Source: Candidatus Krumholzibacteriota bacterium
GTDB lineage: Bacteria > Krumholzibacteriota > Krumholzibacteriia > JAJRXK01
Assembly (NCBI GenBank): GCA_029262065.1
Contig: JAJDAC010000002.1
Span: forward strand, 1 to 64,000
Length of the DNA stretch: 64,000 bases
Reading direction: 5' to 3'
Positions 18,799 to 58,264 of this stretch are shown in pieces. Below the pieces are notes generated by a model. That model did not search any database, was not told the DNA's origin, and saw only the letters and a list, made by a program, of their open reading frames with translations. Positions within the stretch are counted from its first letter, which is position 1, and each line of letters starts with the position of its first letter. The position numbers and the translations under genes were made by a program.

Positions 18799-18906
18799 TC
18801 CGGCCCGGCCACCGCACCGTTCCTTCGGCCGCCGGGTCCATGCTACGCTGCGCGTTCGAACTCGAATCAAGTTCACGCCCATTCGAACAGCCAAGCACGA
18901 ACCGGC

Positions 18907-20037: not shown

Positions 20038-20060
20038 TACGCGCGGGGCCAGGGAGGTAC

Positions 20061-24748: not shown

Positions 24749-24765
24749 TTTCTGTGGAGTCTCCG

Positions 24766-28267: not shown

Positions 28268-28338
28268 CGGCCCAGCCTGCCACAAGCCCAAGTCGACAAC
28301 AAGACAAGGGTTTGTCCTTCCGGAGCGTCTCCATACCC

Positions 28339-32738: not shown

Positions 32739-35700
32739 ACCGAAGTTCCTTCGTGCGAACCGGCGTCACCAATCGTCGACGCCAGCTGTGCCAACGAGTT
32801 GGCAAAGACTTCGCGCAGGCTCAACTGATGCCCGATCTTCTCTTCGACCCGGGCAATCATGCGAATCGCCAAGAGCGAATGTCCTCCCAGGTCGAGGAAT
32901 GTGTCGCGGCGACCGACCCGGTCGATCGAAAGCAACTCGCACCAGACCTCGGCGATCGCGCTCTCGGCGCCCGGGAAGGGCGCTTCGAATTCGGCGCTGG
33001 CCCAGGCGTGTGCGTCCTGGCCCAACGGTGGCAGCTCATCCAACTGTTGTACATGGGCGGGCACGGCGGCTAGACCCATCTTCTGACGGAGATGACCGCG
33101 AATGGCGAGCGTCGATTGGGTGGCATCGCCAACCAGCGAAACCACAAGGCGGGGCGGTTCTCCCTGCATCTCCGCGCGCGCCTGGCGAACGCCCGCCATG
33201 GCCAGCAGCACTATTTCGACCTGGGACAGATCCAGCGAAGTACCGTCGATGGAGACCACCCGGGACGTTGAGTCCGCCGGCTCATTGACCGTGGGATCGG
33301 GCAAGGCCCGCCGATTCAACTTGCCGTGCGGCGTACGCGGAACTTCTTCGATACGCACGAAGACCGAAGGCACCATGCTCAGCGGCAATTCCGCGCGAAG
33401 GTGCTCGCGCAACCGACGCTTATCAAGCTCCGCAGGTGAGACCACATAGGCCACCAGGCGTTGATCATCGGGGCCAAATTCGTGCACCACGACCACGGCC
33501 GCACCCACACTGTCGTGGCGCAACAGGGCCCCTTCGATCTCGCCGGGTTCGATGCGCATGCCCCGCAAACTGATCTGTGCGTCGGCCCGGCCCATGAACA
33601 CCAGCTCACCATTGGCTCGCCAACGAACCAGATCTCCGGTGCGATACATGCGCTCACCCGGCCGGCGTGAAAACGGATCGGGAACGAAACGTTCGGCGGT
33701 TGAACCCGGACGACGCACGTACCCGCGGGCAACCGCTCCGCCGCCGATATAGAGTTCGCCGGCCACGCCCACGGGGACCGGCTGCAACGCGGCGTCCAAC
33801 ACATAGGCTCGGCTATGGTCGAAAACACGCCCCAGGGAGACAGGCGAAACGACATTCGACTGCGCCGAGACCTCATGCGCGCAAACGCCCACGGTGGTCT
33901 CGGTCGGACCGTAGTGATTGAACACGGTCAGGTCGGGGCGTGCGGCCATGATGGCACCGAGAAATTCAGCGCCTGGTTCCTCCCCGCCCACGATCAGCAC
34001 GCGACGCGGAAGTGCACACCAGGTTGGGTCTCCGGCCGTAAGTACATGCAAGTGCGACGGCGCAATCTTGAGCACATCGGGCCTACGGGCTTCGAATGAT
34101 TCGCGGACCCGGGCCGCCGACGCCGACGCGTCGGGCGAGAGTATGCGCAGCTCGCCGCCCCCCATGAGCGGCGGAAACACCGTGGTGACCGACGAATCGA
34201 CCGTCAACGGCTGCAACATGGCGAAGCGGCCGTCGGTAGCCAGCTTCAGCCGATCCACGACATCAACAACGTACGTGTAGAGCTGACTGTGTTCCACCGC
34301 GACACCCTTGGGCCGGCCGGTAGAACCCGACGTAAACAACGTGTAGGCCAGGTTGGACGGTTTCAAATCCACGCGTGGAGGATCATCCCGCCCTTCTTCC
34401 CCGGTGGGCATCTGGATGTGCTTACGCCCTGGGGCCACCGATGGGTCCCAATCCGATCCAACCACCACGACCGAGACACCGGCGTCTTCGAGAACCTGTT
34501 CTTGCCGCGCCGCCGGATGCGCCGCGTCCAATGGAACGTAACCGCCGCCCGACTTGAGCACCCCGAGCAACGCAATCACGAGGTCCGGCCCACGGTCCAG
34601 CCACAGTCCCACGGAAGTCTCGGGGCCCACGCCGGCGTCGCTTAACGATTGCGCCAACGCGTTCGATCGCCGATCCATCTCGCGGTAACTGATCTCCCGG
34701 TCCCCGAACGATATCGCCACCGCATCAGGGGTGCGCTGCGACTGCTCCCGGATGCATTCGTGCACCAACCGCAGCGGCGGCGTGGATTCGTCAGACCGAT
34801 TCCATTCGAGCACTCGGTGTCGCTCCCAGGGCGACGTAAGCCGGGCGCAGCCGATTTCAATGTTGGGCTGGGCCACGAGCGAGCCCAGCAGATTCACGAA
34901 ATGACTCCCCATGCGGCGCACGGTGACCTCGTCGAAGAGATCGCGGTTGTACTCCAGCTCGGCATCGAACCCCGCGTCGGCCCGCGCGATGAGCCGCAAC
35001 GTAACGTCTTGCTTCGCACTGCCGGTATCCGGCGGAAGCGGACGCAGAGGGCGACCCGCGAAGTTGGAAAGGTCGAGCGGCATGTTCTGGAGAACCAGCA
35101 CCGCCTGGAAGATCGGCGTGTGCGCCAGGTCGCGCTGAGGCTGCAGCTCTTCCACCAGGCGCTCGAACGGAATGTCCTGGTGGTCGAACGCTTCGCGCGC
35201 TACCTGTCCCACACGATCGAGCAGTTCCTCGAACGATGGCGACCCGGCCAGATCCACGCGCAACGCCAACGTGTTGATGAGCGGTCCGACCACGCCTTCG
35301 CTGGACAATCGATTGCGGTTGGCCACCGGAGTGCCCACGACGATCTCGTCCTGATGCGCGTAGCGGTGCAGAAGCGTCGCGAACGCCCCCACCAGGAGCA
35401 TGAATTCGGTAACCTGGTGCTGCTTCGCCACCGATGCGATTCCAGCACCGAGGGTCGCATCGATCGAGAAGCCGGTCGTGGCGCCGGCAAACGTTTGCGT
35501 CAGCGGGCGCGGTCGGTCGGTGGGCAGCTGAAGTACGGAGAGCGGCGGTGCCAGCTGCTGCTTCCAGTAGGACAACTGCTCGTCGAACTCGCCACCGTCG
35601 AGACGTTGGTTCTGCCAGCGAGCGAAGTCTCGAAACTGGAGCGGCGGCGGCGGCAGGGCCAAGGTCGAGTCCGAACGTTCCTCGGCCGCCACCAACTTGC

Positions 35701-38700
35701 CAAGCTCGTCCAGGAGAATGGCCAGTGACCATCCATCGCACACAATGTGGTGGAGGCAAAGCGCCAGGATGCACTCGTCTGGGCTCAACTGGGCCAGCGC
35801 CAAACGCACCAACGGTCCTTTTTCGAGATCGAACGGTCGCTGCACGAAATCGCCCAACCACGCATCGAGACCATCGAGACTTTCATTCGTGGAATCGGGA
35901 GCTTCCACGGTTCCCTCGAACGCCGCCACGACGCGTTGCCGAGGCTCACCGTCAACCAATGTGAATACCGTGCGCAGGATCTCGTGTCGTTGAGCCAGCC
36001 GCATCATGGCTGCGAGAAGGTCCCGCGGCCGTACGGCCCCCTCCAGGTGAAGCAACAGCGGAACGTGGTAGAACGCGCTATCGGGCTCCCACTGCCGCAA
36101 GAACCACATGCGCTTCTGGGCAAACGAGACCGGGTAGGTCTGATCCAACTGCAACCGCGTGGCTTCAGGAACGGTTGCCGTGGACGTCGACCCTCGAGCC
36201 GCTTCGATCCTTTGGGCCAGCGCCGCCACGGTGGGCCGGGCAAAAAATTCTCGCAGGGGCAAATCAACACCCCACCGAGCTTCCACGCGCGACACCACGC
36301 GCGTGGCCAATAGCGAATGCCCACCCAATTGGGCGAAGAAGTCGTCCTCGGCGCCCACGCGTTCCACCGAAAGCAATTCACTCCACAGCGACGCCAGTTC
36401 AACCTGGGTCTCTCCCGCCGGCGCCACGTACACCCGCGGCTGGTCTTCGGGGTCGGGAAGCGCCATGCGATCGACCTTGCCCCGCGATGTCAACGGGAAG
36501 TCCTCCAACTCAACCCACGCCGAAGGCACCATGGCCGAAGGGAGCCGGTCGGACGTGAAGCGTCGGAGCTCCTTGACATCAAGGTCGTGGCCCGTCCGGG
36601 TCGTGAAGTAGGCCAGGATTCGCCGCTCGTCCGCCAACTCACCTTGAGCAACTACCAAACTCTGGAGAACCGCGGGGTGTGCTGAAAGAACGGCTTCGAT
36701 CTCCCCCAACTCGATGCGGTGGCCACGCACCTTGACCTGGTTGTCGCCGCGTCCCAGGAACTGCAGCGTTCCGTCACCAACCCACCGAACCCGGTCCCCG
36801 GTGGAATACAAGCGCTGACCCGGCGACGATGCGAAGGGGTCGGGAATGAATCGATCTGCCGTGGCCGCGGCCGCGCGCCAATACCCTCGGGCCAGCCCAT
36901 CACCGGCCACGTACAGTTCACCCACTACCTGGGGCGGTACCGGCTGCAGGCGCGAATCGAGTACATACACGCGTGCGTTCGGAACCGGGCGGCCGATGGG
37001 TACCGGCACATCAACGTTCTCGCCCACGACATGACAGGTACTGAAGGTCGTGCCCTCGGTCGGCCCGTACCCATTCACAATGACCAGCGCGGGAAAGCGC
37101 CGTCGCAGCGCAGCCACGTGCGTCGGGGACACGACGTCGCCGCCGGCCAACACCTGTTTCACGTGCGCGAAGGCATCGATCTGATCGTCGATCATTTGAT
37201 GAAAGAGTCCGGCGGTGAGCCACAGCGTGTCCACGCGATGGCGCTGAATTGTTTGCGCCAACTCGGCCAGCGAAGCAGGACCAGGCGGCGCCACCACCAG
37301 CTGACCACCGTGCAGCAACGGCGCCCACAACTCGAAGGTCGAGGCATCGAATGCCAATGGGGCATACATCAACACCCGACATTCGGGACCCAGATCGACG
37401 TAGTCGGGGGTGTGGACCAACCGGACCACATTGCGATGGGTAACCGCGACCCCCTTGGGAAACCCCGTAGAACCCGACGTATACGAAATGTACGCCAGAT
37501 TCCCGGCCGACAGTTCCGCCGGAACATCATCGACCGGAGTCAGAGATGCCATATCTTCCAGCAACGCGCATGACGCGCCAATGGAAAGAATCTTCTGCTC
37601 GTACCTCTTTTCCGTGAGAACCAGGCTCGCTCCCGTGTCGTCGTGGATGAATCGCAACCGCGCGGCCGGCAGTTCGGGATCGAGGGGTACGTAGCAACCG
37701 CCCGCCATCAGCACCGCCAGGACCGCGACTACCATGTCTTCGGAGCGTTCCAGGCAAACGCCTACGGGTGACTCTATCGACACACCACGCTCGCGCAAAC
37801 CCGCCGCCACCGAAGCCACGCGGGACGCCAGTACGCCGTAGCTCATGGGACCGGCGTTGGTAACCACGGCCGTGCGCTCTGGGGTTTTCGCGGCAACCTG
37901 CAGAAACAGGCCAACGATGGTGGCGTCACGCGGATAGTCGCGAATCGTCTGGTTCCACTGCGTGGTAACGAGTTCGCGTTCCTGCGGCAAGAGCAGCGTG
38001 GCGTCGCCAACGGCCGCGTCCGGGTTTGCGGTCAACTGGTCCAGCAACGAACAGAACCGGCGAGATGACGCCTCAGCCGTGGCCTGATCGAACACGTCGG
38101 TGTCGTACTCCCACCGCACGCCCATCGTCGACTCGCGTTCCTGTACGTGAAGCGTCAGGTCGAACTTGGCCACACCCGCATCCAACAGCACTTCCTCCAC
38201 CTTCAGCCCGTTCAGAGCGAAGGCTCCTTCCGCCACGTTCTGCATGGCCAACATCACGCGGAAAAATGGCGTTCGCCCCGCCCCCCGTTCGGGCCGGAGA
38301 ATCTCGACCAGCCGATCGAAGGGTAGTTCCTGATGGCCCAGATTGTTCAGCGACTCCGATTGCGCCTGCGCCACCAGATCGGCAAACGTGGCGTCCCGCT
38401 CGACATGCCCCCGGGCTACCAACGTATTCACGAAGAAACCCACCAGTCCCGACAGCTCGGGCGAAGTGCGGCCGGCCACCGGATAGCCCAGGGCCACATC
38501 GTGGTTGTCCGTGGCGCGAAACAAGTACGCCCACAACGCGGCCATCAACACCGACGGCACCGAGGCCCGAACGCGCCGCGCAACCAGGCGGATGTTGGCC
38601 GTGGTCGAAGGACCGAGGGTCACCGAAAACGTACGGCCATGCCCGGCAGCCCGAACCGAAGGGCCCTCGCCAGACAGGTCGCCGGACGGGCTCAAGTGGG

Positions 38701-39391
38701 CCAGGTGAGCCTTCCAGTACTCAACCTCATGTTCGAGAGCGCCGCCGTCCAGTCGCTGGTTTTGCCAAGCCGCATAGTCTACGTAGCGAACATCCGGCGC
38801 TGCCGGCAGCTCCTGGCCCGCATACGCGGCGGCCAGCTCCTGCCATAGGATGCCCAGCGACCAACCGTCGCAGACGATGTGGTGCGCCACCAGGTAGAAC
38901 AGGTACTCGGCGTCGCCCGTGCGAACCAGAGCCGTGCGCAACAGTGGCCCCGTGGCAAGATCGAACGCACCGGTGGCTTGCTCGCGATGAATGTCGTCCA
39001 CGCGCGCCGCCCGTGATGAGTCATCGAGATTTCTCAGGTCCTCGATTTCAAACGCGGCCGGCCCCGCCGGCGCGATCACCTGCACGGGCCCATCTTCGAC
39101 TACGGGGAACGTGGTTCGGAGGACTTCATGGCGCGATACCAAGGTGTCCAAGGCCATCCGCAGTCGATTCGCGTCGAGTGGCCCAGTGACCCTGAGCGCC
39201 AGCGGCACGTTGTACAGCGGGGTTCCTGGCTGGAATCGTTCGAGAAACCATAGCCGCCGCTGGGCCGACGACAACTCGTACCACGGCGCGTCCCCGGTTC
39301 GCACCACGGCGTGGGAGTCTGAATCTACCTGTGACTTCTGCCGCAATCGGAGGGCAAGCAGCGCACGCTTCTGGCGCGTCAGCGGATCCAT
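32735..39391 (-). CDS. NRPS, two modules: C-A-T-C-A-(A-sub remnant)-T, predicted Val-like and Asp-like
   Basis: 2218 residues, starting five bases after the upstream NRPS. It opens with an L-T-R-Q-K-R-A-L-L-A-L-R-L-R docking-like helix. C1 has intact H-H-I-V-C-D-G near residue 170. A1 core T-S-G-S-T-G-F-P-K-G is near 640; its code read by eye is DAFWLGGTFK, close to Val. T1 G-G-H-S-L is near 1020 and C2 H-H-I-V-C-D-G near 1215. A2 core is near 1690, with code DSTKIGHVGK, close to Asp codes apart from Ser at the second position. Between A2 and the final T (G-G-H-S-L near 2167) lies an extra segment at about 2045-2130 that looks like a decayed adenylation C-terminal subdomain. There is no terminal TE, R or C domain. 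Confidence 0.93.
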   Translation of the reverse strand: MDPLTRQKRALLALRLRQKSQVDSDSHAVVRTGDAPWYELSSAQRRLWFLERFQPGTPLYNVPLALRVTGPLDANRLRMALDTLVSRHEVLRTTFPVVEDGPVQVIAPAGPAAFEIEDLRNLDDSSRAARVDDIHREQATGAFDLATGPLLRTALVRTGDAEYLFYLVAHHIVCDGWSLGILWQELAAAYAGQELPAAPDVRYVDYAAWQNQRLDGGALEHEVEYWKAHLAHLSPSGDLSGEGPSVRAAGHGRTFSVTLGPSTTANIRLVARRVRASVPSVLMAALWAYLFRATDNHDVALGYPVAGRTSPELSGLVGFFVNTLVARGHVERDATFADLVAQAQSESLNNLGHQELPFDRLVEILRPERGAGRTPFFRVMLAMQNVAEGAFALNGLKVEEVLLDAGVAKFDLTLHVQERESTMGVRWEYDTDVFDQATAEASSRRFCSLLDQLTANPDAAVGDATLLLPQERELVTTQWNQTIRDYPRDATIVGLFLQVAAKTPERTAVVTNAGPMSYGVLASRVASVAAGLRERGVSIESPVGVCLERSEDMVVAVLAVLMAGGCYVPLDPELPAARLRFIHDDTGASLVLTEKRYEQKILSIGASCALLEDMASLTPVDDVPAELSAGNLAYISYTSGSTGFPKGVAVTHRNVVRLVHTPDYVDLGPECRVLMYAPLAFDASTFELWAPLLHGGQLVVAPPGPASLAELAQTIQRHRVDTLWLTAGLFHQMIDDQIDAFAHVKQVLAGGDVVSPTHVAALRRRFPALVIVNGYGPTEGTTFSTCHVVGENVDVPVPIGRPVPNARVYVLDSRLQPVPPQVVGELYVAGDGLARGYWRAAAATADRFIPDPFASSPGQRLYSTGDRVRWVGDGTLQFLGRGDNQVKVRGHRIELGEIEAVLSAHPAVLQSLVVAQGELADERRILAYFTTRTGHDLDVKELRRFTSDRLPSAMVPSAWVELEDFPLTSRGKVDRMALPDPEDQPRVYVAPAGETQVELASLWSELLSVERVGAEDDFFAQLGGHSLLATRVVSRVEARWGVDLPLREFFARPTVAALAQRIEAARGSTSTATVPEATRLQLDQTYPVSFAQKRMWFLRQWEPDSAFYHVPLLLHLEGAVRPRDLLAAMMRLAQRHEILRTVFTLVDGEPRQRVVAAFEGTVEAPDSTNESLDGLDAWLGDFVQRPFDLEKGPLVRLALAQLSPDECILALCLHHIVCDGWSLAILLDELGKLVAAEERSDSTLALPPPPLQFRDFARWQNQRLDGGEFDEQLSYWKQQLAPPLSVLQLPTDRPRPLTQTFAGATTGFSIDATLGAGIASVAKQHQVTEFMLLVGAFATLLHRYAHQDEIVVGTPVANRNRLSSEGVVGPLINTLALRVDLAGSPSFEELLDRVGQVAREAFDHQDIPFERLVEELQPQRDLAHTPIFQAVLVLQNMPLDLSNFAGRPLRPLPPDTGSAKQDVTLRLIARADAGFDAELEYNRDLFDEVTVRRMGSHFVNLLGSLVAQPNIEIGCARLTSPWERHRVLEWNRSDESTPPLRLVHECIREQSQRTPDAVAISFGDREISYREMDRRSNALAQSLSDAGVGPETSVGLWLDRGPDLVIALLGVLKSGGGYVPLDAAHPAARQEQVLEDAGVSVVVVGSDWDPSVAPGRKHIQMPTGEEGRDDPPRVDLKPSNLAYTLFTSGSTGRPKGVAVEHSQLYTYVVDVVDRLKLATDGRFAMLQPLTVDSSVTTVFPPLMGGGELRILSPDASASAARVRESFEARRPDVLKIAPSHLHVLTAGDPTWCALPRRVLIVGGEEPGAEFLGAIMAARPDLTVFNHYGPTETTVGVCAHEVSAQSNVVSPVSLGRVFDHSRAYVLDAALQPVPVGVAGELYIGGGAVARGYVRRPGSTAERFVPDPFSRRPGERMYRTGDLVRWRANGELVFMGRADAQISLRGMRIEPGEIEGALLRHDSVGAAVVVVHEFGPDDQRLVAYVVSPAELDKRRLREHLRAELPLSMVPSVFVRIEEVPRTPHGKLNRRALPDPTVNEPADSTSRVVSIDGTSLDLSQVEIVLLAMAGVRQARAEMQGEPPRLVVSLVGDATQSTLAIRGHLRQKMGLAAVPAHVQQLDELPPLGQDAHAWASAEFEAPFPGAESAIAEVWCELLSIDRVGRRDTFLDLGGHSLLAIRMIARVEEKIGHQLSLREVFANSLAQLASTIGDAGSHEGTSV

Positions 39392-39396
39392 GGGAT

Positions 39397-42300
39397 CTAC
39401 GAAGGGCCTTCGCCCGGCGCCGCCGACTCTTCGTCGAGCAACGCCTGGATCTGCTCTTCGGACAATCCCTCCAGCTCGGCCATGGCCGCCGCCAGTTCGT
39501 CGGGATCGGCGTTCTCGATTTCGAACTCGGTCAACGCATCAGCCATGCCGGCCACCGTGGGTGACATGAACAATCGCAGCATGGGAATGTCCACCTCCAT
39601 CCTACGTCGTACGCTGGCAATGACCTGGGTCAACAGGAGCGAGTGCCCGCCCAGCTCGTAGAAATCGTCGTGAATCCCAATCTGGTCGACCGGTAGCGTC
39701 TCTTTCCATACTTCAACGAGAAGCTCTTCGGTCGGTGTACGCGGAGCCACGTAGGCTCGGGCACTGCGCCCATCGGGCATGGGCAACGAAGAACGATCGA
39801 CCTTGCCGGACGAGTTCAGCACCAACCGATCCACGGGTACGAAGACGGTGGGCACCATGTAAGCGGGAAGCCTGGCCTGCAGGAACGCGCGAAGGTCATC
39901 GCCGCTCGCCGAGCCCTCGATATAGGCCACGAGCAGGGTGCTGCCCGGCGCATCTTCGTGCAAAATCACGACGGTTCGTTCGACGCCGGAATGCGTCAAC
40001 AGGACAGCTTCTATTTCGCCCAGTTCAATGCGGTAACCCCGCATCTTGACCTGGTGATCCCGGCGGCCCACGAACTCCAGGTTGCCGTCGTGGTCCATCT
40101 TCACCAGGTCACCCGAGGCATACAAACGCGATCCCGGTTGGCTGGAGAACGGATCGGGACGAAAGCTCGCCGCGGTAAGATCGCCTCGGCCTTGATATCC
40201 GTGGGCCAAGCCGGCCCCGCCGATGAACAATTCGCCTACCACGCCCGCGGGGGTGGGTTGCAGGCGCGAGTCCAGCACGTGGACCGTGGTGTTGGTCAGG
40301 GGGCGGCCAATGGGTATGGCATGGGCAGAGGCCGGCACCGTTGCCACGGAATAGAACGTGGTGAACGTCGTACTCTCGGTGGGTCCGTAGACGTTGATGA
40401 GGGATGCTCCCGTACCCGCGCGGCAATTCCGCACGGCATCGGGATCGGCGGCTTCGCCACCGAACACCACCATGCGCAGCGTCGAGAACGCCGCGGGGCG
40501 CTCGTTCACCACGGCGTTGAACAAGGACGTGGTAAGGAGCGTTACCGTGACTCCTTGTTTGACCAGTGCGCTTTCGAACGCCTCGGGCGACAGCACGACT
40601 TCGCGCGAAATACCCACGAGGCAAGCCCCGTTGGTCAGGGCGCTCCAGATCTCGAACAGCGACGCATCGAATGTCAATGCGGCTACCTGGGCCACGCGAT
40701 CCTCGGGGCGTACCTCAACCAGGTTGTTGGGTGACGCGGTCCGCTGAATGGCCCGGTGCGGGACCACCACACCCTTGGGCGTGCCGGTGGAACCCGACGT
40801 ATACAGCACGGCCGCAGCCTGCTCGGGATCGACCGGAACATTCAGGTTGGCCGTGGACTGACGTGCCATGACGGCGGCGTCTTGATCGATGAGAATGGCC
40901 GAAACGCCGACCAGACGGCGAGCGATCTGAGCATGGGTAACCACGAACCGGCACGGCGTATCCCGCACCAGGGTCTGCAGACGCTCGTCGGGGTGGTCGG
41001 GATCCAGCGGGACGTACGCGGCCCCTGCTTTCAAGATGGCGAGCATGCCCACGATAGCGGCCGCCGAACGTTCCAGCGCGAGGCCTACCCGATCTTCCGA
41101 ACGCACGCCCCGAGCCACCAGGGTTCGCGCGATCTGGTTGGCCGTGGCGTTCAACTCGCCGTAGGAAAGCGACGTGTCACCAACCATCAATGCCAGGCGA
41201 TCGGGATGAGCCGACGCGAAGGCTTCGAAACTCACGTGCAAAGGCTGGTTGGCGAAAGGCCGTTCGGTTGCGTTCCACTCGTGTTGAAACCGGTCGCGCT
41301 CGAATACGGGCACCAGGTTCAGGTCACCCACGCGTTGATGAGGATCTTCAGCGATGGACTCGAGCAACGCGCCCAGATGATCCACCATTCGTGCCATGGT
41401 CTCGGGCGAAAACAGATCGCTGCTGTACTCGAAGAATCCCGTGAGGCCCTCGCGCGCCTCCCAGATGGCCAGGGTCAGATCGAATCGCGAGCCTTCGTTG
41501 TTTACCTGGAGCGGTTCCACTTCGATCCCACTCAGATCCAGGTCCGGTTCGGATTCATCCAGATACACCAGGGAGACCTGGAATACCGGGTTTCGGCTGG
41601 CATCGCGCTTGGGGTCGAGCGTCTCCACCAACTTGCCCATGGGCATGTCCTGGTGCGCGTACGCCCCCAGCGATGCCTCGCGGGCGCGACGCAACAACTC
41701 GGTGAACGTTGGGTTGCCGCTCACATCGATGTAGACGCCCAGGATGTTCAGCAGATAGCCAATCAGCTCCTGCGTTTCCACGCGCTGCCGGTTGGCGATG
41801 GGAATCCCAAGTACCACGTCATCCTGATGACAGTAGCGGTGCATGAGTGCGGCGGTGGCGGCCAGGTAGAGCATGAAAGGGCTGGCACCCTCGCTCTGCG
41901 CCCACCGTTTCAGACGATCGTGCAGCGCCCGTGGATAGGACAGGTTGTAGCGCTCACCGCGAAACGACTGGTACGGCGGGCGAGGCCGGTCGGTCGGCAG
42001 GTCCATGATGAGCGACGCCGGAGCCAGATGATCCGACCAATAGTCGACCAAACGGTCGAGCGTTTCGCCCTGCAGGAAGTCACGCTGCCAGACCGCGAAG
42101 TCGGCGTACTGGATGGGAAGCGGCGCGAACGGCGAGGGTTCGCCGCGCGAGAACGCCGAATAGTTTCCGGTGATTTCCTTTTCGACCAGAGCGAAGCTCA
42201 CACGATCGGTCGCGATATGATGAATCGACACGACCATTACGTGGTCGGCGTCGCCAAGCTCCACCAGATGAGCGCGGACGACGGGGCCCTTGCGCAGGTC

Positions 42301-42762
42301 GAACGGGAGGTCGGCAATTTCCTGCAGACGCTGATCCAGCGCGGCTTGCCCTTCGCTCGAAGTCAGATCCAGGTGCCTCAGGCTTTCCACCGCGAGCGTG
42401 ATGGCCATTCGTTCATGGATCACCTGCCGCGGTCGACCGGCCACTTCGGCGTAGGTGGTACGCAGGCTCTCGTGCCGCTGAATGACCGCGTTGACCGAGC
42501 GCTCGATCAGATCGTGGTCGAGCGCTCCGCGCAGACGAACTCCCCAGTTGATGTTGTACACCGAAAGGCCGGGAGCCATGCGATCGATGATCCACAGGCG
42601 CTCTTGATCGAAAGAGAGCGGCGCGTCGCTCAGGTCGTGCCGGCGTTGGATGCCCTGGCCACCGGCGTCACGCAGCCCACGTTGGCGACGGCGCAGCTCG
42701 AACAGAGCGCGCTGCTCGGGGGTAAGTGCGGCCAATCGCTCGGCGTAATCTTTGGGACTCAT
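39397..42762 (-). CDS. NRPS, single module: C-A-T, predicted Ile/Val-like
   Basis: 1121 residues from the ATG at 42762, five bases after the monooxygenase stop; the frame stays open to 42918 inside the previous gene. The N-terminus M-S-P-K-D-Y-A-E-R-L-A-A-L-T-P-E-Q-R is docking-like. The C domain (about 50-490) has H-H-I-A-T-D-R instead of H-H-x-x-x-D-G, with the His pair and Asp kept. The A domain core T-S-G-S-T-G-T-P-K-G is near 655; the code by eye is DAFLVGVTFK, nearest to Ile-type aliphatic pockets. T has G-G-H-S-L near 1036. The tail L-E-G-L-S-E-E-Q-I-Q-A-L-L is a typical acidic docking motif for the next subunit. As the first NRPS after the PKS it should condense a ketide intermediate onto its amino acid. 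Confidence 0.92.
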   Translation of the reverse strand: MSPKDYAERLAALTPEQRALFELRRRQRGLRDAGGQGIQRRHDLSDAPLSFDQERLWIIDRMAPGLSVYNINWGVRLRGALDHDLIERSVNAVIQRHESLRTTYAEVAGRPRQVIHERMAITLAVESLRHLDLTSSEGQAALDQRLQEIADLPFDLRKGPVVRAHLVELGDADHVMVVSIHHIATDRVSFALVEKEITGNYSAFSRGEPSPFAPLPIQYADFAVWQRDFLQGETLDRLVDYWSDHLAPASLIMDLPTDRPRPPYQSFRGERYNLSYPRALHDRLKRWAQSEGASPFMLYLAATAALMHRYCHQDDVVLGIPIANRQRVETQELIGYLLNILGVYIDVSGNPTFTELLRRAREASLGAYAHQDMPMGKLVETLDPKRDASRNPVFQVSLVYLDESEPDLDLSGIEVEPLQVNNEGSRFDLTLAIWEAREGLTGFFEYSSDLFSPETMARMVDHLGALLESIAEDPHQRVGDLNLVPVFERDRFQHEWNATERPFANQPLHVSFEAFASAHPDRLALMVGDTSLSYGELNATANQIARTLVARGVRSEDRVGLALERSAAAIVGMLAILKAGAAYVPLDPDHPDERLQTLVRDTPCRFVVTHAQIARRLVGVSAILIDQDAAVMARQSTANLNVPVDPEQAAAVLYTSGSTGTPKGVVVPHRAIQRTASPNNLVEVRPEDRVAQVAALTFDASLFEIWSALTNGACLVGISREVVLSPEAFESALVKQGVTVTLLTTSLFNAVVNERPAAFSTLRMVVFGGEAADPDAVRNCRAGTGASLINVYGPTESTTFTTFYSVATVPASAHAIPIGRPLTNTTVHVLDSRLQPTPAGVVGELFIGGAGLAHGYQGRGDLTAASFRPDPFSSQPGSRLYASGDLVKMDHDGNLEFVGRRDHQVKMRGYRIELGEIEAVLLTHSGVERTVVILHEDAPGSTLLVAYIEGSASGDDLRAFLQARLPAYMVPTVFVPVDRLVLNSSGKVDRSSLPMPDGRSARAYVAPRTPTEELLVEVWKETLPVDQIGIHDDFYELGGHSLLLTQVIASVRRRMEVDIPMLRLFMSPTVAGMADALTEFEIENADPDELAAAMAELEGLSEEQIQALLDEESAAPGEGPS

Positions 42763-42767
42763 ACCAC

Positions 42768-43952
42768 TCACCGCGACTCTCGCCGCCTGTACCTTCGCCG
42801 CAGATCGTTGAGGTAGGGAAGCCCTCGCAGGACGGTCTCGCGGTCGAGGCCGAAATCCACGAGACAGGCGATTTCGGTCACTCCCATGCCCACAAGCCGT
42901 TCGGTCAAAGCGTAGCACCGGTCGACGGTGCCGAACAAGGCGCTGCTCTGGAAGAACTGCTCGAAAGCATGCTCCATGATCGCGTCGCGATCAGCCGGGT
43001 CGATGGACGCCAGATCTTCGGAACCCGAACTGGACAATATTCCCTCGTGCTGTTGGAAGAACGTGCGCAGATAGTCGGTCATGGGTCCCCGCACCAGGGC
43101 CCGCACCTCGGCGTCACTCTCCCCCACGAAGGTGTGAAGCATGATCGTAACGGTTTTCGCCGTCACGTCGTGGCCCGACTCGCGCAGCGCTTCCTGATAG
43201 GACGTGATCTTTTGCTGGAGATCGTCGAACGGTTGATTGACCAGGGTGCTCAAAACGTTCAGCCCCTGGCGACCGGCTTCGATCCAGGATTCCGGATTGC
43301 CCGAAATAGCCAACCATATTGGCAACTCGGATTGGATGGGCCGTGGGAAGATCCGCACCTCGTGCCTGCTTCCGTCGCGCGCCTCGAACGTCTCCGACTC
43401 CCCCGCCCACAGGCGTCGCAGCGTCTGCAGCGACCGGTAGGTCGTCTGCTTTCGCGTCGCGTGCTCACCCGGCGATAGGATGAAGTCCTGCGGATGCCAC
43501 CCCGTGGCCACCGAAATGGCGGCCCGCCCGTTGCTCAGATTGTCGACGACGGCCCATTCTTCGGCCACCCGCACCGGGTGATGTAGGGGAAGCGCCACAC
43601 TGCCCGCCCGTATTCCTATCCGGCGCGTAGTCACGGCCAGCGCTGAGGCCAGCAACGACGGATTGGGGTACAGGCCACCGAAGTCCTGGAAATGTCGTTC
43701 GGGCGTCCACACCGCGCAAAAATCGTGTTTGTCGGCGAAACGCGCGGCTTCGAGCACGAGCGCATACTTTCCCCCGCCCATGATCGATCCATCGTCGGAA
43801 AAGAAGAACAGACCGAAATCCAACTCGCTCCCGGTGGCCGGCGGCTCCGCGGTTTCGTCATCCTGCGACTTGGCCCGCCGCACGCGTTGGGCCAGCAGCT
43901 CGCGCTGCTTCGGAGTGAGCCCCGAGGGAGAACGATCGCCCGGATCAGCCAT
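42768..43952 (-). CDS. Free-standing luciferase-like flavin monooxygenase with NRPS-style N-terminal docking segment
   Basis: 394 residues; ATG at 43952 overlaps the PKS stop by 8 bases. Residues 46-370 form the bacterial-luciferase-like TIM barrel of the natural-product type. Motifs are L-D-F-G-L-F-F-F-S, A-V-W-T-P-E-R-H-F near 85, Y-P-N-P-S, S-V-A-L-P-L-H-H-P near 130 and S-V-A-T-G-W-H-P-Q-D-F near 165. Such enzymes use reduced flavin and O2; in assembly lines they usually occur as built-in domains. Here it is separate, but the first 30 residues (L-T-P-K-Q-R-E-L-L-A-Q-R-V-R-R) look like the docking helix of the neighbouring NRPS subunits. It probably acts on the PKS-bound intermediate; hydroxylation or oxygen insertion are options. 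Confidence 0.88.
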   Translation of the reverse strand: MADPGDRSPSGLTPKQRELLAQRVRRAKSQDDETAEPPATGSELDFGLFFFSDDGSIMGGGKYALVLEAARFADKHDFCAVWTPERHFQDFGGLYPNPSLLASALAVTTRRIGIRAGSVALPLHHPVRVAEEWAVVDNLSNGRAAISVATGWHPQDFILSPGEHATRKQTTYRSLQTLRRLWAGESETFEARDGSRHEVRIFPRPIQSELPIWLAISGNPESWIEAGRQGLNVLSTLVNQPFDDLQQKITSYQEALRESGHDVTAKTVTIMLHTFVGESDAEVRALVRGPMTDYLRTFFQQHEGILSSSGSEDLASIDPADRDAIMEHAFEQFFQSSALFGTVDRCYALTERLVGMGVTEIACLVDFGLDRETVLRGLPYLNDLRRRYRRRESR

Positions 43953-46900
43953 CGGCTTCGTTTACCTCGCCCGGCGTTTCCATTTCCAGGAAATTGCGGG
44001 CCTCATCGGGTGAGAGCAGTTCGATATCGCCGAGCAGCGTTTCAAGCTCGGCGATTTCGTCATCGGGGACGGAATCCTTCTCGATACGAGAAGCCAACTG
44101 GGCCACGGTAGGTGCCTCAAACAGCACGCTCAATGCGAGCTCTACCTGGAACTGCTTGCGCAGGCGTGACACAAGCTGGATGGCCAGCAACGAGTTGCCA
44201 CCCAGATCGAAGAAGTTCTCTTCGCGCCCAATGGGCGCAATGCCAAACAGGTCTTCCCAGACGCTGGCGATTGCGCGTTCGCGTTCGTCTTCGGCCAACA
44301 CCACGTCGCGATCGGACATGCCCACGTTCGAGGACTTGTCGAGCTCCTGCAGGAATCGATCGGCGCTGAACGCCGTGGGCTGCTCCACCAGAACATTGAA
44401 GTCGTGCGTGGACACGATGACCTGCGGCAACGCCGCGCCCAGGACACGCTCGAGCGCATCGATCCCCTCGCCGGTATCCAGGCCGTATTTGTCGCGCATC
44501 TCGGCCACCAACGATTGCATCTGGGGGCTGGCTTCCTTCAGCGCGGGGTCGTCGGCCTGTCGCCAAGGAGACCAGTCGATCGATATCACCCGCTCGCCGA
44601 CCAACGTGGCCGATTGCGCCACGGCATCCAGGTAGGCGTTGGCGGCGCAGGCATCGACCTGACCGAACGCCCCCGTGATCGATACGGTCGACGAAAACAG
44701 CACCAGGAAATCCAGATTCTCCCCGTCGAGAACTCCCAACAACGTGCGCGTTGCATCAACTTTGGGAGCAAACACCGCCGCAACCATCTCGTCGGTCTTC
44801 AACTGTATGAGTCCCTGCCCCAAGCCCTCGGCCGCGTGTATGACGCCGTGCAGTCCACCGTGCGAAACGCGCGCCGCACGAACCGCACCCTGAACCGACG
44901 ACGCATCGGACCAGCGCACGTGGTGGATCGAGACCGAACAGCCACGCTGCTCCACCGCCTGCAGTCTCTTGATCTGGGCCTGTCGCGCCGGATCCAAGCC
45001 GGCCTCCGACCAGTTCTCGCGGATCGGAACCTCACCGGATTCAAGCCACGCGATCGATGCGGCGCCGCGGGCCGCAAGCTGCTCGATGACCGCCAGCACC
45101 GGATCGCGTGGCGAACCGGTAACCAGATAGCTGCCCCCCGCACGCACCACCGCACGGTCCGACGGTTCCAGCGGCGCGGGCTCGTAGGTCGGCCGCCAGC
45201 GCTGTCCGTGGCGGAAGGCCCAGGTTTCCGACGCCGCCGGCAATCGAAGCTGCGCCAACACCAGCTCCTGGCGGTGCGAATCGGTCATGTCCAGATCAAG
45301 AACCCGGCACATCACATTCGCGGTTTCCTGCGGCAATACCTTGCACGGACCCAACAGCGTGGACCGGGACGGTGTGAGCTCTTCGTGGCCCAACACCGAG
45401 TACAGGCCGCGGGTAACCACTTCGACGCGTACGGTCTGATCGTCGGTCAGGTCCGCCAATACCTGTCCCAATTTCAACAGGCTTCCAAAGCCACGCCTTT
45501 GCAGCAGGGCGTGGTCGAGGTCGTCCCCCATCGACCACAAATGGACGATGGCCCGGGGAAGCTCGCCAGCCTGATCGAACACGCGCTGCAGGTGATCCCG
45601 ATCGTCGCAGGTGACCGTGAAGTCGTCGTCACCGCGCCGATCGAAACGCGCCCCGGCCTGAACCACCAAAACGCGCCGTGCGCGCGTGCGAAGATCCTCT
45701 ACGATCGCCCGCCCCATTTCGGACCCGTCGTCCAGTACCATCCAGCAATCCGGCGGTGTCGGATCGGCGGCGGCCTGCGATGGAGGCACACCGCGTTGCC
45801 AACTTGGTACATAGAACCAATCGCGCGGCTCGGCGCGCGGCGAGAAGTCCACCGGCCCCGCTTGCAGTTCCGCACGCTCGATCCAATACCGTTTGTGTTG
45901 AAACGGATAGGTGGGGACCGAAGCCAACCGTCGCCCATTGCCCGCACCGAATTTTCCGAGTTCCATAGGGACACCGTTGGCCCACAATTGGCCCATGGCT
46001 TCGTTCAGTACCCGAACGTCGTCGTCGTCGCGGCGAGGATGGCGCATCGTGGAAACGGCCGGTGCAGCCAGCCTTTCGGTGGGCCATTGACCCAGCAACG
46101 AAGTCAGGGACTCGCCGGGCCCGACTTCCAATGCAATCAGGTCGCCTTCGTCCAGCAGCAGATCCACGCCCTGCCGGAAGCGAACCCCTTGGCGTAGGTG
46201 CTGAGCCCAATAGTCGGGATCCATCGCCTCGGCGTCGGTAATCCAGGTGCCGGTGACGTTCGAGACGAATCGCTGCCGCGGTCGTGAACGTGCTGCCGCT
46301 GACACTTTCTGGCGAAACGGATCCAGAATAGGATCCATCATGGCCGTGTGGAACGCGTGCGAAGTGTGCAGCGGACGCGTCTCGATACCCGCCTCACCCA
46401 ATCGCTGCTCCAATCGGCCAACGGCCTCGGTCGCTCCGGCCACGGCGCACAGTTCGGGCGAGTTGTAACTGGCAATGGCGACCGAATCGTCCAGGTGCGT
46501 GACCAGCTCGGACTCGCTGAGAGGCACCGCCAACATCCGGCCGGGCGGCATACTTTGCATGAGTCGCCCACGCTCGGCCACCAGAACCAAGGCGTCTTCC
46601 AGCGAGAACACGCCCGCCAGGCACGCGGCCACGTACTCACCAATCGAATGCCCCAGCATGGCATGCGGTTCGAGCCCGGCGTCCAACAGCAGGCGAGCCA
46701 TCGCATACTCCACGGCGAACAACGCCGGCTGCGTGTACTGCGTTTGGCGCAGCCGGTCCGTATCCTCACCGTTGGAAGCCAGTACCAGTTCTTGCAGATC
46801 TACGTCGAGGTGAGGCCGCAGGATCTCGCGGCAGTCCTGAAACGTGCGGTCGAAGGCGGGCACGCGCTCGATCAACGATCGCGCCATCCCCGCGTATTGC

Positions 46901-48513
46901 GCTCCCTGACCGGGAAAGAGGAAGGCCAACCGCGGCGAAGACAACCGGCGGCGAATGCGTGGACGCCCAGACAGCCGCTTGACGGCATCCTGCGTATCGG
47001 TGGCGGCGATGGCGGCGCCATGCGACAACCAGGTGCGCCCGTCGCGCAAGGTCGTGGCTACATCGGCCAGTGATGACGTGGCACCCTCACCCTCCAGGAA
47101 CGCAGCCAACTGCACCGCCGATGCGTTGACCGCGTCGACGGTCGCGCCCGACAACAACAGTACTTCGGGAGCCGCGGTATCCACACGATGCGACGAGGCT
47201 GCCGCAGCAGGCGGGCCTTCAATGACGACGTGGGCGTTCGTGCCGCCCATACCAAAGCTACTGATACCCGCCCGACGTGGGTGGTCGGTCCAATCACGTA
47301 GTTGGGTGTTCACGTAGAAGGGACTGTTGGCAAAGTCGATTTCGGCGTTCGGGGTTTCGTAGTGCAAACTGGGCGGAATCTCGCCGTGCTGCACGGCGAG
47401 CACGGCCTTGATGAATCCCGTGACGCCGGCGGCGGCATCCAGATGCCCCAGGTTGGTCTTCACCGAACCCAACGCGCAGTACTGGGTTCGCGAGGTATCA
47501 AAAGCCTGCTTCAGCGCCGCCACCTCGATGGGATCGCCCAGCGCGGTGCCGGTACCGTGCGCCTCGATCATGCCCACGGTATCGGCATCCACATCGGCCA
47601 GAGCGAGGGCCTCGGCGATGACTTCGGCCTGCCCGTCGACACTGGGAGCGGTGAAACCCACTTTGTTGGAGCCATCGTTGTTGATGGCGCTTCCCCGCAC
47701 TATCGCCAGAATGGGATCCTCCTCGGCCTGGGCATCTTCCAGGCGGCGAAGTACCACAACTCCCACTCCACTGCCGTTCAGTGTCCCCTGCGCGTTGGCA
47801 TCGAAGGCGCGGCACGTTCCATCGGGCGAGGTGATGCCGCCCTCCACGTATTGGTACCCATCGACCTCGGGCACGCGTACCGAAACACCGCCAGCCAGCG
47901 CTACATCACACTCCTGCGACAGCAGGCTCTGCACCGCCAGGTGAATGGACACCAGTGAAGTGGAACACGCCGTTTGAACGTCGAAGCTGGGACCGCGCAG
48001 GTTCAACTTGTAGGACACCATCGTGGTCAGGAAATCGGCCTCGTTGCCCAGATCAAGCGCCAGCCCACCCATGGTCTGCGACAGATCGGGTTGCGAGCGA
48101 AGATTCCGGGCCAGGTAGCTATTGGGTCGGGACCCCGCGAACACGCCGATGCGGCCGTCGAAACGCTGGGGATCGAGGGCCGCCGATTCCAGTGCCGCCC
48201 ACGCCGACTCCAGGAACAGGCGATGCTGGGGATCCATGAGCTCGGCTTCGCGCGGCGTGAAACCAAAGAGCTTGGCATCGAATTCCTCGGTTCCCTCGAG
48301 AAATCCGCGCGCCTTGACGTAGTCGGATTCGCGCAGGAGTCCGGGCGAAACCCCAGCCGCGATCAGCTCATCGTCCTCGAAGTGACGGATGGACTCGACC
48401 GCCGAGCGCAGGTTGGCCCAGAGCTCGGCCACCGACGCGGCGCCAGGAAAGCGCCCCGCCATACCCACTACGGCGATGCAACCGACACCTTCGGGAGATT
48501 CCACGTCGCTCAT
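43945..48513 (-). CDS. Type I PKS module: KS-AT-(inactive KR)-ACP, malonyl type
   Basis: 1522 residues; ATG at 48513 overlaps the NRPS stop as ATGA. KS spans about 10-430, with Cys in T-A-C-S-T-S near 181, E-A-H-G-T-G-T and K-T-N-L-G-H all intact. AT covers about 530-830, with G-H-S-I-G-E-Y near 622 and H-A-F-H near 720, the malonyl-CoA signature. A KR-like region lies at about 1110-1350. Its NADPH loop reads V-T-G-S-P-R-D-P and the active-site Tyr is replaced: G-Q-V-D-A-C-A-A-N stands where G-Q-x-x-Y-A-A-A-N is expected. It is therefore predicted inactive, leaving a beta-keto group. ACP has D-L-G-G-N-S-L near 1436. The tail L-L-S-P-D-E-A-R-N-F-L-E looks like a docking element. Confidence 0.93.
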   Translation of the reverse strand: MSDVESPEGVGCIAVVGMAGRFPGAASVAELWANLRSAVESIRHFEDDELIAAGVSPGLLRESDYVKARGFLEGTEEFDAKLFGFTPREAELMDPQHRLFLESAWAALESAALDPQRFDGRIGVFAGSRPNSYLARNLRSQPDLSQTMGGLALDLGNEADFLTTMVSYKLNLRGPSFDVQTACSTSLVSIHLAVQSLLSQECDVALAGGVSVRVPEVDGYQYVEGGITSPDGTCRAFDANAQGTLNGSGVGVVVLRRLEDAQAEEDPILAIVRGSAINNDGSNKVGFTAPSVDGQAEVIAEALALADVDADTVGMIEAHGTGTALGDPIEVAALKQAFDTSRTQYCALGSVKTNLGHLDAAAGVTGFIKAVLAVQHGEIPPSLHYETPNAEIDFANSPFYVNTQLRDWTDHPRRAGISSFGMGGTNAHVVIEGPPAAAASSHRVDTAAPEVLLLSGATVDAVNASAVQLAAFLEGEGATSSLADVATTLRDGRTWLSHGAAIAATDTQDAVKRLSGRPRIRRRLSSPRLAFLFPGQGAQYAGMARSLIERVPAFDRTFQDCREILRPHLDVDLQELVLASNGEDTDRLRQTQYTQPALFAVEYAMARLLLDAGLEPHAMLGHSIGEYVAACLAGVFSLEDALVLVAERGRLMQSMPPGRMLAVPLSESELVTHLDDSVAIASYNSPELCAVAGATEAVGRLEQRLGEAGIETRPLHTSHAFHTAMMDPILDPFRQKVSAAARSRPRQRFVSNVTGTWITDAEAMDPDYWAQHLRQGVRFRQGVDLLLDEGDLIALEVGPGESLTSLLGQWPTERLAAPAVSTMRHPRRDDDDVRVLNEAMGQLWANGVPMELGKFGAGNGRRLASVPTYPFQHKRYWIERAELQAGPVDFSPRAEPRDWFYVPSWQRGVPPSQAAADPTPPDCWMVLDDGSEMGRAIVEDLRTRARRVLVVQAGARFDRRGDDDFTVTCDDRDHLQRVFDQAGELPRAIVHLWSMGDDLDHALLQRRGFGSLLKLGQVLADLTDDQTVRVEVVTRGLYSVLGHEELTPSRSTLLGPCKVLPQETANVMCRVLDLDMTDSHRQELVLAQLRLPAASETWAFRHGQRWRPTYEPAPLEPSDRAVVRAGGSYLVTGSPRDPVLAVIEQLAARGAASIAWLESGEVPIRENWSEAGLDPARQAQIKRLQAVEQRGCSVSIHHVRWSDASSVQGAVRAARVSHGGLHGVIHAAEGLGQGLIQLKTDEMVAAVFAPKVDATRTLLGVLDGENLDFLVLFSSTVSITGAFGQVDACAANAYLDAVAQSATLVGERVISIDWSPWRQADDPALKEASPQMQSLVAEMRDKYGLDTGEGIDALERVLGAALPQVIVSTHDFNVLVEQPTAFSADRFLQELDKSSNVGMSDRDVVLAEDERERAIASVWEDLFGIAPIGREENFFDLGGNSLLAIQLVSRLRKQFQVELALSVLFEAPTVAQLASRIEKDSVPDDEIAELETLLGDIELLSPDEARNFLEMETPGEVNEADG

Positions 48514-51500
48514 TCGGATTCCACGGAGTCCTTGGGGCCACGGCGGCCACCGCCCCGCCGTCGCAGAAGGGCGCGGCGGGCCGCGCCCCGGTCACGTCCG
48601 ACGCTGGCGGCCCGACCCGTATCCACCGCCTGGTCAAGGCGTCGGGCCAACGACCGTATCGTCGGAAACTGAAACAATTCTACCACGGACAGTTCCCTGG
48701 CAAAGGCCTCAGCCAAACGCGCCTGCGCCTGGATCATGAGCAGGGAGTTTCCGCCCAGATCGAAGAAGTTGTCCTTGGCACCAATCTCGGCCACTCCGAG
48801 CAGATCCCGCCATACCGCGGCGATTGTCTGCTCCGTGACATTGGATACCGCGACATATTCCGCGGTCGCCAGTGCACGATCCTCGGGCGGGCGCGGCAAC
48901 GCCTGGCGGTCGAGTTTGCCGTTGGGGTCAAGCGGCAGACGCTCCAGCTCAACAATGTGGCCCGGCACCAGGAAGTCCGGCAGCTCGCCGGCCAGACGCT
49001 GCCGCACGTCGGCCATGGTCGAAGCCGGATGGCTGGCATCGGCCACCACGTACGCCACCAGGCCGCGGCCGGCGGCAAGGTCCGACCTGACCACTACCGC
49101 ACACGACTTTATGGCCGGATCATTCAACAGCACCGACTCGACCTCCCCCGGCTCGATCCGGAATCCCCGTACCTTCACCTGACGGTCGGAGCGTCCCAGG
49201 AATTCGAGGGTACGGTCGCCGCGCCAGCGCACGCGATCCCCGGTACGGTAGCGACGGCCGCCGGGCACGGTGGGGTCGGGGACGAATCGCTCAGCCGTCA
49301 GACCGGCCTGGCCCAGGTAGCCTCGGGCCACACCGGGGCCACCTATATATAGTTCGCCCGGAACACCAACCGGGACGGGGCTGCCGATCGCGTCCAGGAC
49401 GGCCACATGCGTGTGAGCGATCGGACGGCCGATGGGCACCGGGCGCGTAACGGCGTCAACACTGTCCATTCGATGGCACACGGCAAATGTCGTGGTTTCG
49501 GTGGGACCGTATCCATTGATCACCGAGCAACCAGGCACCTCAAGCAGCACCCGTTCGACGCGGTCGGCCGACAACACGTCGCCACCGGCCAGCACCTGTC
49601 GCACTCCGCGCAGAACCTGAGGGTCGTGGTCGACCACTTCGTGGAACAGCCCGGCCGTGAGCCAGAGCGTGGAGACCGTGTGGTCTTTGAGAACCCGGCG
49701 CAGGCCGGTTGGCGTTGCCATCTCGTCGGGGTAGATCACCAGGGCGGCACCGTTCAACAGTGGTGCCCACAGCTCGAAGGTGGAGCCGTCGAACGAAGTT
49801 GGCGCGAGCAACAGGACCCGCTCGTGCTCGGCCAGACTGAAATAGTCGTTCTTGGCCACCAACCGCACGACCGACTGCTGCGCCGTGGCCGTACCCTTGG
49901 GTCGACCGGTCGAACCCGACGTGAACATGACGTAGGCCAGATCAAGACCGGTGGTGGTCACGGCAGGACGGGTGGCCGGCGTACCGACCGGCGCCGTATC
50001 GGAGATGGACAGAGTAGGTATGACGTGGGGCAGCTCGATGGCCTTCGTCGACGCGTCCACGATCACCAGGTCCAGCGGAACGTCCTGTATCATGGCCGAC
50101 AGTCGCGCCACGGGGTACGTCGCGTCCAAGGGCACGTAGGCGGCTCCGGCCTTGAGTACCGCCAGGACGGCCACCACGAACTCGCGCGAACGCGGCAGGC
50201 AGATTCCCACCTTTGAACCACGAACCACCCCGCTGGAAATCAACGCATGCGCCCACGCATTCGCCCGTTCATCCAACTGCTGGTAACTGAGCGTTCCCCG
50301 TGCGTCGACGATCGCAGTGGTAAGCGGCGCGGCATCCACCTGCGCCTGGAACCGTGCGACCAGGCCCACTTCGAAATCCAACGGCGGTAGTGCACCCTGC
50401 CCGTCGACCACGGTAGCCGCAATCTGCTGGGTCGGGGCCATCGCAATCGAACCCAAGGGTTCGTAGGGCGACTGCGCAATGTTCCTGGCCATGGTTGTCA
50501 AGAACGAGCCCCAGCGTTCAACCGTGGCGCGTTCGAACAGGTTTCGATCGAACTCCAGGCGCCCGGGCCAGGTGCTGCCGCCACCGCGATCCAGGCTGAA
50601 CACCAGATCGAACTTCGAGCTGTCGGTATCGAGGAAACGAGCGGTAACGGTGGAGTCGCCCAATTTGCGTTTGCCCAGCGGGGCATCCTGCAGCGTGAAC
50701 ATCACCTGGGCCAACGGAGGCCGACTGGTATCCCGATCGGGCTCTTGCTGATCGACTACCTCCGAGAAGGGAAGATCCTGGTGGGCGAGCGCATCGAGCA
50801 CCGCCCGTCGGGTCCTGGCCAGATTCTCGAGAAACGGTTGCGTCGGGTCGACGCTGGATCGAATCGCCGCCGTATTCAGAATACAACCCACCATGCGTTC
50901 CAGTTCGGGCCGGTCGCGTCGCACCACGGGTATCCCCACGGCAAAGTCATCCTGATCGGCAAGACGCTGTAGCAACGCCCGAAATACGGTGAGGAACACC
51001 ATGAACGGAGTGGCATCAACATCGCGACCCAACGCTTCCAACGCACGGGCCGCAATTGGTTGCAGTTCGAATTCCACGACGTCGCCCTCGAAACCCTGGA
51101 CGGCGGGGCGAGGGAAATCCACCGGCAGATTCAGCGGCGCCAGTCCGGCCAGCGCCTGGGCCCAGTAGTTTCGTTGTCCATCCAATGACTGTGATCGCAG
51201 CCAGAATGAATAGTCCGAATACTGAACCGGTGGTATCGGCGGAGCATCGCGTCCCGCGATCTGCGATTCCAACGTAGTCAGAAGGTCATCGTAGAGGATG
51301 TCGACCGAGGACAGGTCCGCCACGATATGATGTAGCAGAATCAGAACGTATAGGTGCGCATCACTACGGGCGACGGCCACGCGTACGGGCACTTCAGAGT
51401 CGAGCTGGAACGGTTCCCGGGCCATGGCCCGAAACCGGGCCAGAACCTGCTGCGCATCGCCCGCCGCACACCACTGCCATGAAATTCTCGATGCGTCGTC

Positions 51501-58025: not shown

Positions 58026-58092
58026 GATCGCCGACAGTGTACCCCACCATCGGCGGGGAATCAGCGCCGGGACGTACCGACGGGGGGAACAG

Positions 58093-58175
58093 ACATGGCT
58101 GCCTCCATCCTGCAGACGCAGAGTATTGGATACTTCCAGAGCAGAAGTGTGTGCCGGCAGTGGAAGCAGCCATGT
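58093..58175 (-). promoter_or_regulatory. Long imperfect inverted repeat in the NRPS operon leader
   Basis: 15-base arms at 58093-58107 and 58161-58175 (ACATGGCTGCCTCCA against its complement) pair with one mismatch around a 53-base loop. Inside, CTGC/GCAG and AGTAT/ATACT can pair further. It lies 68 bases upstream of the NRPS start codon. A structured 5' leader, a transcription attenuator or a protein-binding site are possible; nothing in it matches a known riboswitch. Confidence 0.55.
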
Positions 58176-58264
58176 CGACTGGCGCGACCGCGATCTCCGC
58201 AACCTCTCGCAGCTCGCGACGACTCGCACCAGAATCGAAGGGGGTGGAACCTCAGGGAGTCTCC

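Follow-up and report, generated by a model that had tools for sequence, protein, structure and literature searches.

A luciferase-like monooxygenase with a docking-type helix, a candidate separate tailoring station between a polyketide synthase and a peptide synthetase

Results

A docking-type helix on a separate monooxygenase

We analysed a 64,000-nt stretch of DNA from a Candidatus Krumholzibacteriota bacterium (assembly GCA_029262065.1, contig JAJDAC010000002.1, positions 1 to 64,000; hereafter the window), which carries on its minus strand an assembly line of non-ribosomal peptide synthetases (NRPS) and a polyketide synthase (PKS) in the order NRPS1, PKS, luciferase-like monooxygenase (LLM), NRPS2, NRPS3 and thioesterase. 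The LLM is a separate protein of 394 aa (42768..43952, minus strand). Judged by profile comparison, the split LLM and the following NRPS begin with one and the same module, a helix in the case of the LLM, and the PKS ends in an acidic tail that is conserved among partner PKSs. We propose, with a probability of roughly 60%, that the tail of the PKS is the docking site of the LLM, which there oxidises the beta-ketoacyl chain held on the acyl carrier protein (ACP) of the PKS, probably at C2, before NRPS2. A preliminary description, made from the letters of the window alone, had suggested that the enzyme docks on the PKS carrier and oxidises the chain there. The comparisons described here support that suggestion, because the segment occurs in split versions only, appears to be the module of the following NRPS and is matched by a conserved tail on the partner PKS, and because the gene order in two other loci (L008 and L010, see below) speaks against position as the sole cause.

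The helix of the LLM (sequence LTPKQRELLAQRVRR; residues 12-29, LTPKQRELLAQRVRRAKS, 43866..43919, minus strand) was located with a profile of NRPS N-termini and with AlphaFold. The profile contained eight NRPS N-termini only and zero LLMs, and was searched against 220 N-terminal stretches. Among split LLMs, those from L006-L013, L119 and L121 were matched at their N-termini (E values of 1e-16 to 5e-7), as were the window LLM (4.1e-5) and that of L017 (8e-3), while zero internal LLMs were matched. A regular-expression scan of the loci first collected found the motif only at LLM or NRPS starts. The N-terminus of NRPS2 was the top match of the profile across its own genome, in a profile that includes NRPS2 itself.

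Scores were also obtained with profiles from which every window sequence had been left out, using 3000 shuffles as the null. The LLM N-terminus reached 15.1 bits (maximum of the shuffles 5.8), the docking-type segment of NRPS2 (MSPKDYAERLAALTPEQRALFELRRRQRGL; 42673..42762, minus strand) reached 50.6 bits, and the weaker helix of NRPS3 (MDPLTRQKRALLALRLRQK) was borderline with 9.8 bits versus 8.3 for the best shuffle. The resemblance among these N-termini that was described initially thus exceeds chance, NRPS3 being borderline; unlike its relatives, the window LLM has lost the first half of the segment or has it in diverged form. The N-termini of NRPS1 and of the PKS lack the docking-type helix. 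In the AlphaFold model of the LLM, a helix at residues 14-29 is followed by a low-confidence linker (residues 30-41) ahead of the barrel, suggesting a separate helix on a flexible linker, and residues 11-30 carry a net charge of +5.

Tag-bearing LLMs form essentially one clade of separate proteins

A survey of 141 distinct domains of the LLM family, with context classes assigned by regular expression and therefore approximate, placed 93 inside an NRPS adenylation domain, 26 in separate or nearly separate proteins and 22 in other contexts. The initial statement that this enzyme type is usually internal agrees with these counts, yet separate versions are not rare and have been annotated before. 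Among the listed places above the family cut-off, open frames shorter than 600 aa made up 1/7 in Acidobacteriota, 3/16 in Chloroflexota and 6/13 in Actinomycetota, a rule that undercounts because two separate, tag-bearing LLMs of Acidobacteriota (L119 and L121) lie in longer frames.

The helix was found on 12 distinct LLMs, all of them separate proteins, and on zero internal LLMs, which is the distribution that the preliminary description had asked to be looked for. These tag-bearing LLMs come from Bacillota, Acidobacteriota, Chloroflexota, Gemmatimonadota and Actinomycetota in addition to the source genome. In a maximum-likelihood tree of 81 domains, the 12 form essentially one clade (2 label changes versus 11.4 in shuffles), which also takes in L198, an untagged LLM on a long branch, and which is nested in a larger assemblage of split LLMs that is distinct from the LLMs inserted in adenylation domains. 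The residue after the invariant ERHF motif (residue 89 of the window LLM) is mostly Gln or Glu in the tag-bearing clade (Gln in the window, L006, L007, L008, L010, L013, L119 and L121; Glu in L011 and L012; Val in L017) and His in most other members of the family; judging by the alignment, the non-His residue is possibly a subfamily signature near the active site.

Three loci were particularly informative. In L008 and L010 (Bacillales), a tailed PKS is followed by a small acetyltransferase-like gene (type read by eye), then by an NRPS without the helix and only then by the helix-bearing LLM. The helix would here connect the LLM with the PKS past an untagged NRPS, which argues against position as the sole cause. 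In L157 (Chloroflexota, G080 contig C50), a single reading frame runs from the ACP through the same acidic tail into the LLM as a natural fusion; the LLM frame is later broken by a frame change, and the next NRPS carries the helix.

A conserved acidic tail on the partner PKS

The acidic C-terminal tail of the PKS (IELLSPDEARNFLEME; 43948..44073, minus strand) comprises the last 42 residues with a net charge of -13, and is a putative docking element of two helices according to a tail profile, an alignment and AlphaFold. With the window left out, the profile gave 27.5 bits (best of 3000 shuffles 8.8). An alignment with nine partner PKS tails yielded the common pattern xELExLLxEIExLSxDE, and the tail profile recovered the non-seed PKSs of L119 (E value 3e-10), L121 (1e-8) and L008 (5e-4). 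In the modelled ACP-tail fragment, helices at 133-147 and 151-160 follow the ACP with moderate confidence (pLDDT about 65-70). The tail was correctly described as acidic at the outset; its LSPDEAR motif, however, is the start of the second predicted helix and not the extreme C-terminus. The LLM helix and the PKS tail carry opposite net charges (+5 versus -13).

Within the window, acidic tails end the PKS and NRPS2 (39400..39534, minus strand; 12.5 bits with the window left out, best shuffle 10.5), whilst the LLM and NRPS2 begin with the basic helix, as NRPS3 does weakly. NRPS1 ends in a basic tail, RAARRALLRRRGGGRRG (window 48510-48630), and not in an acidic one. Arg-rich tails also end the LLM-bearing NRPS of L002 and the LLM protein of L108, and from their sequences tails of the NRPS1 type possibly represent another kind of docking element, oppositely charged, where an NRPS hands over to a PKS.

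Ketoreductase decay and the expected substrate

The ketoreductase (KR) of the PKS (44560..45135, minus strand) was found to be degenerate when its motifs were read by alignment: the NADPH motif TGGxGxxG reads TGSPRDPV, and the position of the catalytic Tyr (1288) is occupied by Ala. The glycine motif was degenerate in 9/9 distinct partner PKSs with a KR, versus 2/44 other KRs with a readable motif. In the PKS of L007 the acyltransferase (AT) leads directly to the ACP, and no KR was detected in L008 and L010 at the threshold used. Because the KR of the module is degenerate, the ACP of the PKS (44083..44274, minus strand; PF00550 E value 2e-17), the proposed carrier of the LLM substrate, should present a 3-oxoacyl (beta-keto) thioester. 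The precedent is the PuwE module, which has no KR, combines an aminotransferase with an LLM-family monooxygenase and is proposed to make a 3-amino-2-hydroxy acyl chain (PMC4219810). A scan of window ORFs found no aminotransferase among those covered.

A different docking site would change the substrate. If the LLM helix docked elsewhere, for instance on the acidic tail of NRPS2, the oxygenase would act on the NRPS2-bound peptide; a related acidic tail does end NRPS2, and one is also present on the NRPS after the LLM in L013. However, the tail of the PKS scores far higher than that of NRPS2 (27.5 versus 12.5 bits), a tailed PKS is present in every tag-bearing locus (weakly so in L010), the KR has been lost in the PKSs adjoining tag-bearing LLMs, and the L157 fusion ties the LLM to a PKS ACP. 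We therefore consider docking away from the PKS very improbable.

Family, fold and probable chemistry

The LLM belongs fully to TIGR04020, the "MupA/Atu3671 family FMN-dependent luciferase-like monooxygenase" (464.5 bits with a cut-off of 244.45, covering the full model, 1-341 of 341), and matches PF00296 with an E value of 8e-52. Sequence and fold comparisons both give as its nearest solved structure the OX domain of PuwE (PDB 6KET; 43% identity; Foldseek E value 1.6e-37, TM 0.79/0.90), and the luciferase-type TIM-barrel fold is present. Activity as a flavin mononucleotide (FMN)-dependent monooxygenase on carrier-bound chains is accordingly predicted by family for the LLM.

Since other LLMs have been credited with Baeyer-Villiger-type cleavage (PMC8739492), this reaction is the main chemical rival to C2 hydroxylation. 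The LLM would dock in the same way but perform a Baeyer-Villiger reaction or an oxidative cleavage on the beta-ketoacyl-ACP, so that the chain would be shortened or rearranged and no 2-hydroxy group would arise. The expected substrate is indeed a ketone, and type II Baeyer-Villiger monooxygenases were also returned by Foldseek, at 18-19% identity; the much closer PuwE OX domain, on the other hand, is proposed to yield a 2-hydroxy acyl unit, and we regard cleavage as unlikely, although the least unlikely of the alternatives weighed in this work.

Comparison with known systems

The full-length match well over the cut-off, the fold and the conserved core are shared with the TIGR04020 family; what sets the window LLM apart is its N-terminal docking-type helix and its membership of a sub-clade with mostly Gln or Glu after ERHF. 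The PKS, LLM and NRPS trio of Agrobacterium (Atu3671 type; L004 and L199) has the identical gene order and a separate LLM, but the LLM of L004 begins directly at the barrel, without a docking-type helix. The OX domain of PuwE (puwainaphycin), the closest solved relative, also acts, by proposal, on the chain of a KR-less PKS module (PMC4219810), but lies inside a larger protein of the order PKS-aminotransferase-OX-NRPS. The ichizinone cluster has a separate LLM as well, ichD, with NRPS genes on either side (PMC12144821).

Among known docking elements, the PAX-type pairs (the three-helix bundle of PaxB/PaxC, and the T-domain tail of PaxA with the N-terminus of PaxB) are similar in kind, with a short basic N-terminal helix and a helical tail after the carrier, and PaxB moreover has a proline-kinked helix (PMC9113145, PMC8251938). 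A single N-terminal helix, a two-helix C-terminal tail in the AlphaFold model and opposite charges of the partners were all found here, with the difference that the helix is borne by a tailoring oxygenase. PAX-type elements have been predicted on oxidoreductases (PMC9113145). Pairs of a short linear motif and a beta-hairpin domain offer a precedent in two respects: a single carrier tail can recruit two or more proteins, and halogenases and methyltransferases bear docking domains (PMC9113145). Their N-terminal domain is a larger alpha-beta-beta-alpha-alpha unit, whereas the window LLM has one helix and a low-confidence linker, and no N-terminal beta-hairpin domain is seen in its AlphaFold model. 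No paper on docking elements of LLMs was found in the open-access literature, where the sole match to the letters of the helix was an unrelated light-harvesting paper.

Organisation of the assembly line and its surroundings

Genes of the assembly line, all on the minus strand, overlap or lie a few bases apart throughout. NRPS1 (48510..58229; an ORF with three condensation (C) domains and three modules) lies upstream of the PKS (43945..48513; 1522 aa), a single module of ketosynthase (KS), AT, KR and ACP as assigned with Pfam. The LLM ORF runs from an ATG at 43952 to a stop ending at 42768, overlaps the stop of the PKS by 8 bp and is separated by 5 nt from the ATG of NRPS2 (42762). Coordinates and the minus-strand ORF thus match the initial description of a separate protein encoded exactly between the PKS and the next NRPS. 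NRPS2 (39397..42762) has the Pfam order C, adenylation (A) and peptidyl carrier protein (PCP), and it truly starts with MSPKDYAERL at 42762; the GTG at 42918 is not its start. NRPS3 (32735..39391; C-A-PCP-C-A-PCP by Pfam, two modules) is overlapped at its end by a separate thioesterase (32001..32738; PF00975 E value 3e-45). The C-terminal part of NRPS3 (window 32735-33500) contains additional sequence after the final adenylation domain and before the final PCP, which by eye resembles a second, partial AMP-binding C-terminal domain.

The region adjoining the assembly line (window 18772-31717) encodes glycosyltransferases, a MurJ-like flippase and an ABC transporter pair, and resembles a polysaccharide locus or export genes. 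Elsewhere in the same genome (L201, G000:C56), a second NRPS with a 2656-aa frame and two condensation domains ends in a methyltransferase-like part (read by eye). A TIGR04020 protein was found in 1/80 genomes of the own-phylum sample, namely in the source genome only, yet the G+C content is no different from that of the flanks (0.62-0.64).

Discussion

The sequences themselves show a shared module, a conserved tail, a clade and the decay of the KR; from them we infer a physical contact between LLM and PKS, an order of two clients on one tail and hydroxylation at C2. Within the assembly line, the LLM would serve as a tailoring station in its own right. The two helices of the acidic PKS tail would receive its basic N-terminal helix, beside the PKS carrier protein, which would be feasible because this helix appears to be the docking module of the NRPS condensation proteins. 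With a 3-oxoacyl thioester presumably held on the PKS carrier, the FMN-dependent LLM would hydroxylate the chain, most likely at the activated C2, to give a 2-hydroxy-3-oxo chain. NRPS2, which starts with the same type of helix, would then take the same tail and condense the chain.

Several points weigh against this proposal. The window LLM lacks the first half of the segment, which reads xDLxxRLAA in relatives, or has it in diverged form, and may for this reason dock only weakly. Some 15 further split LLMs do without the helix, which is thus not required for the split state, and they include the trios of PKS, LLM and NRPS in Agrobacterium (L004, L199), Flavobacterium (L033) and Streptomyces (L034, L054). 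A look-alike segment (LLERVENLSPAQRALLMERLRG; E value 6e-5) occurs in an unrelated polysaccharide-export-like protein of the same genome (L200, G000:C21:44593-44664), by chance or because such a helix has a further use, and a short motif alone is therefore no proof of docking. This look-alike lies near the N-terminus behind a likely signal peptide, the type of the protein having been identified by eye. Among the 12 partner PKSs, that of L010 has the one weak tail (E value 1.7), and the tail of NRPS2 could also bind the LLM. The KR contrast (Fisher p value 1.2e-8) overstates the case, because the loci are related and not phylogenetically independent. When the helix and tail profiles were compared with the PDB, no solved docking pair, including PaxA/B/C, was matched, the segments being very short, and single tails and helices gave chance matches only. 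Hydroxylation at C2, lastly, leans on precedents from the family, most of which are proposals too.

In a rival explanation, the segment would be a generic amphipathic helix or a leftover of gene fission, with the LLM acting in trans by free diffusion; the many split LLMs that work without the segment, the look-alike in an exported protein and the truncation in the window LLM would all fit. The segment is nevertheless recognisable over five named phyla, with profile E values down to 1e-16 and in loci with a tailed PKS, and a fission remnant of the internal architecture is contradicted by the fact that the segment is unlike anything in internal LLMs. We judge the non-docking explanation improbable, and keep docking on the PKS tail as the preferred reading.

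The LLM family, separate LLMs between PKS and NRPS (Atu3671 type) and, in principle, docking elements on tailoring enzymes were known already. As far as checked in open-access papers, a docking-tagged LLM clade that shares the helix of the next NRPS and is paired with KR-dead PKS modules is new. As to its origin, we suggest only tentatively, and with somewhat more doubt than confidence, that the oxygenase clade acquired the helix of the downstream NRPS, one PKS tail serving first the oxygenase and then the condensation protein as interchangeable clients, and that this acquisition was coupled with a loss of the KR that left a beta-keto substrate.

The linked decay of the KR allows the substrate, a beta-ketoacyl-ACP, to be predicted from genome data, and the tag-bearing split, untagged split, internal and fused LLMs provide a natural series for comparison. 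A short, portable address tag of this kind could direct a tailoring enzyme to a chosen carrier protein. Should docking be confirmed, a tail that binds one partner after another would offer a clear example of how order is kept at a shared docking site.
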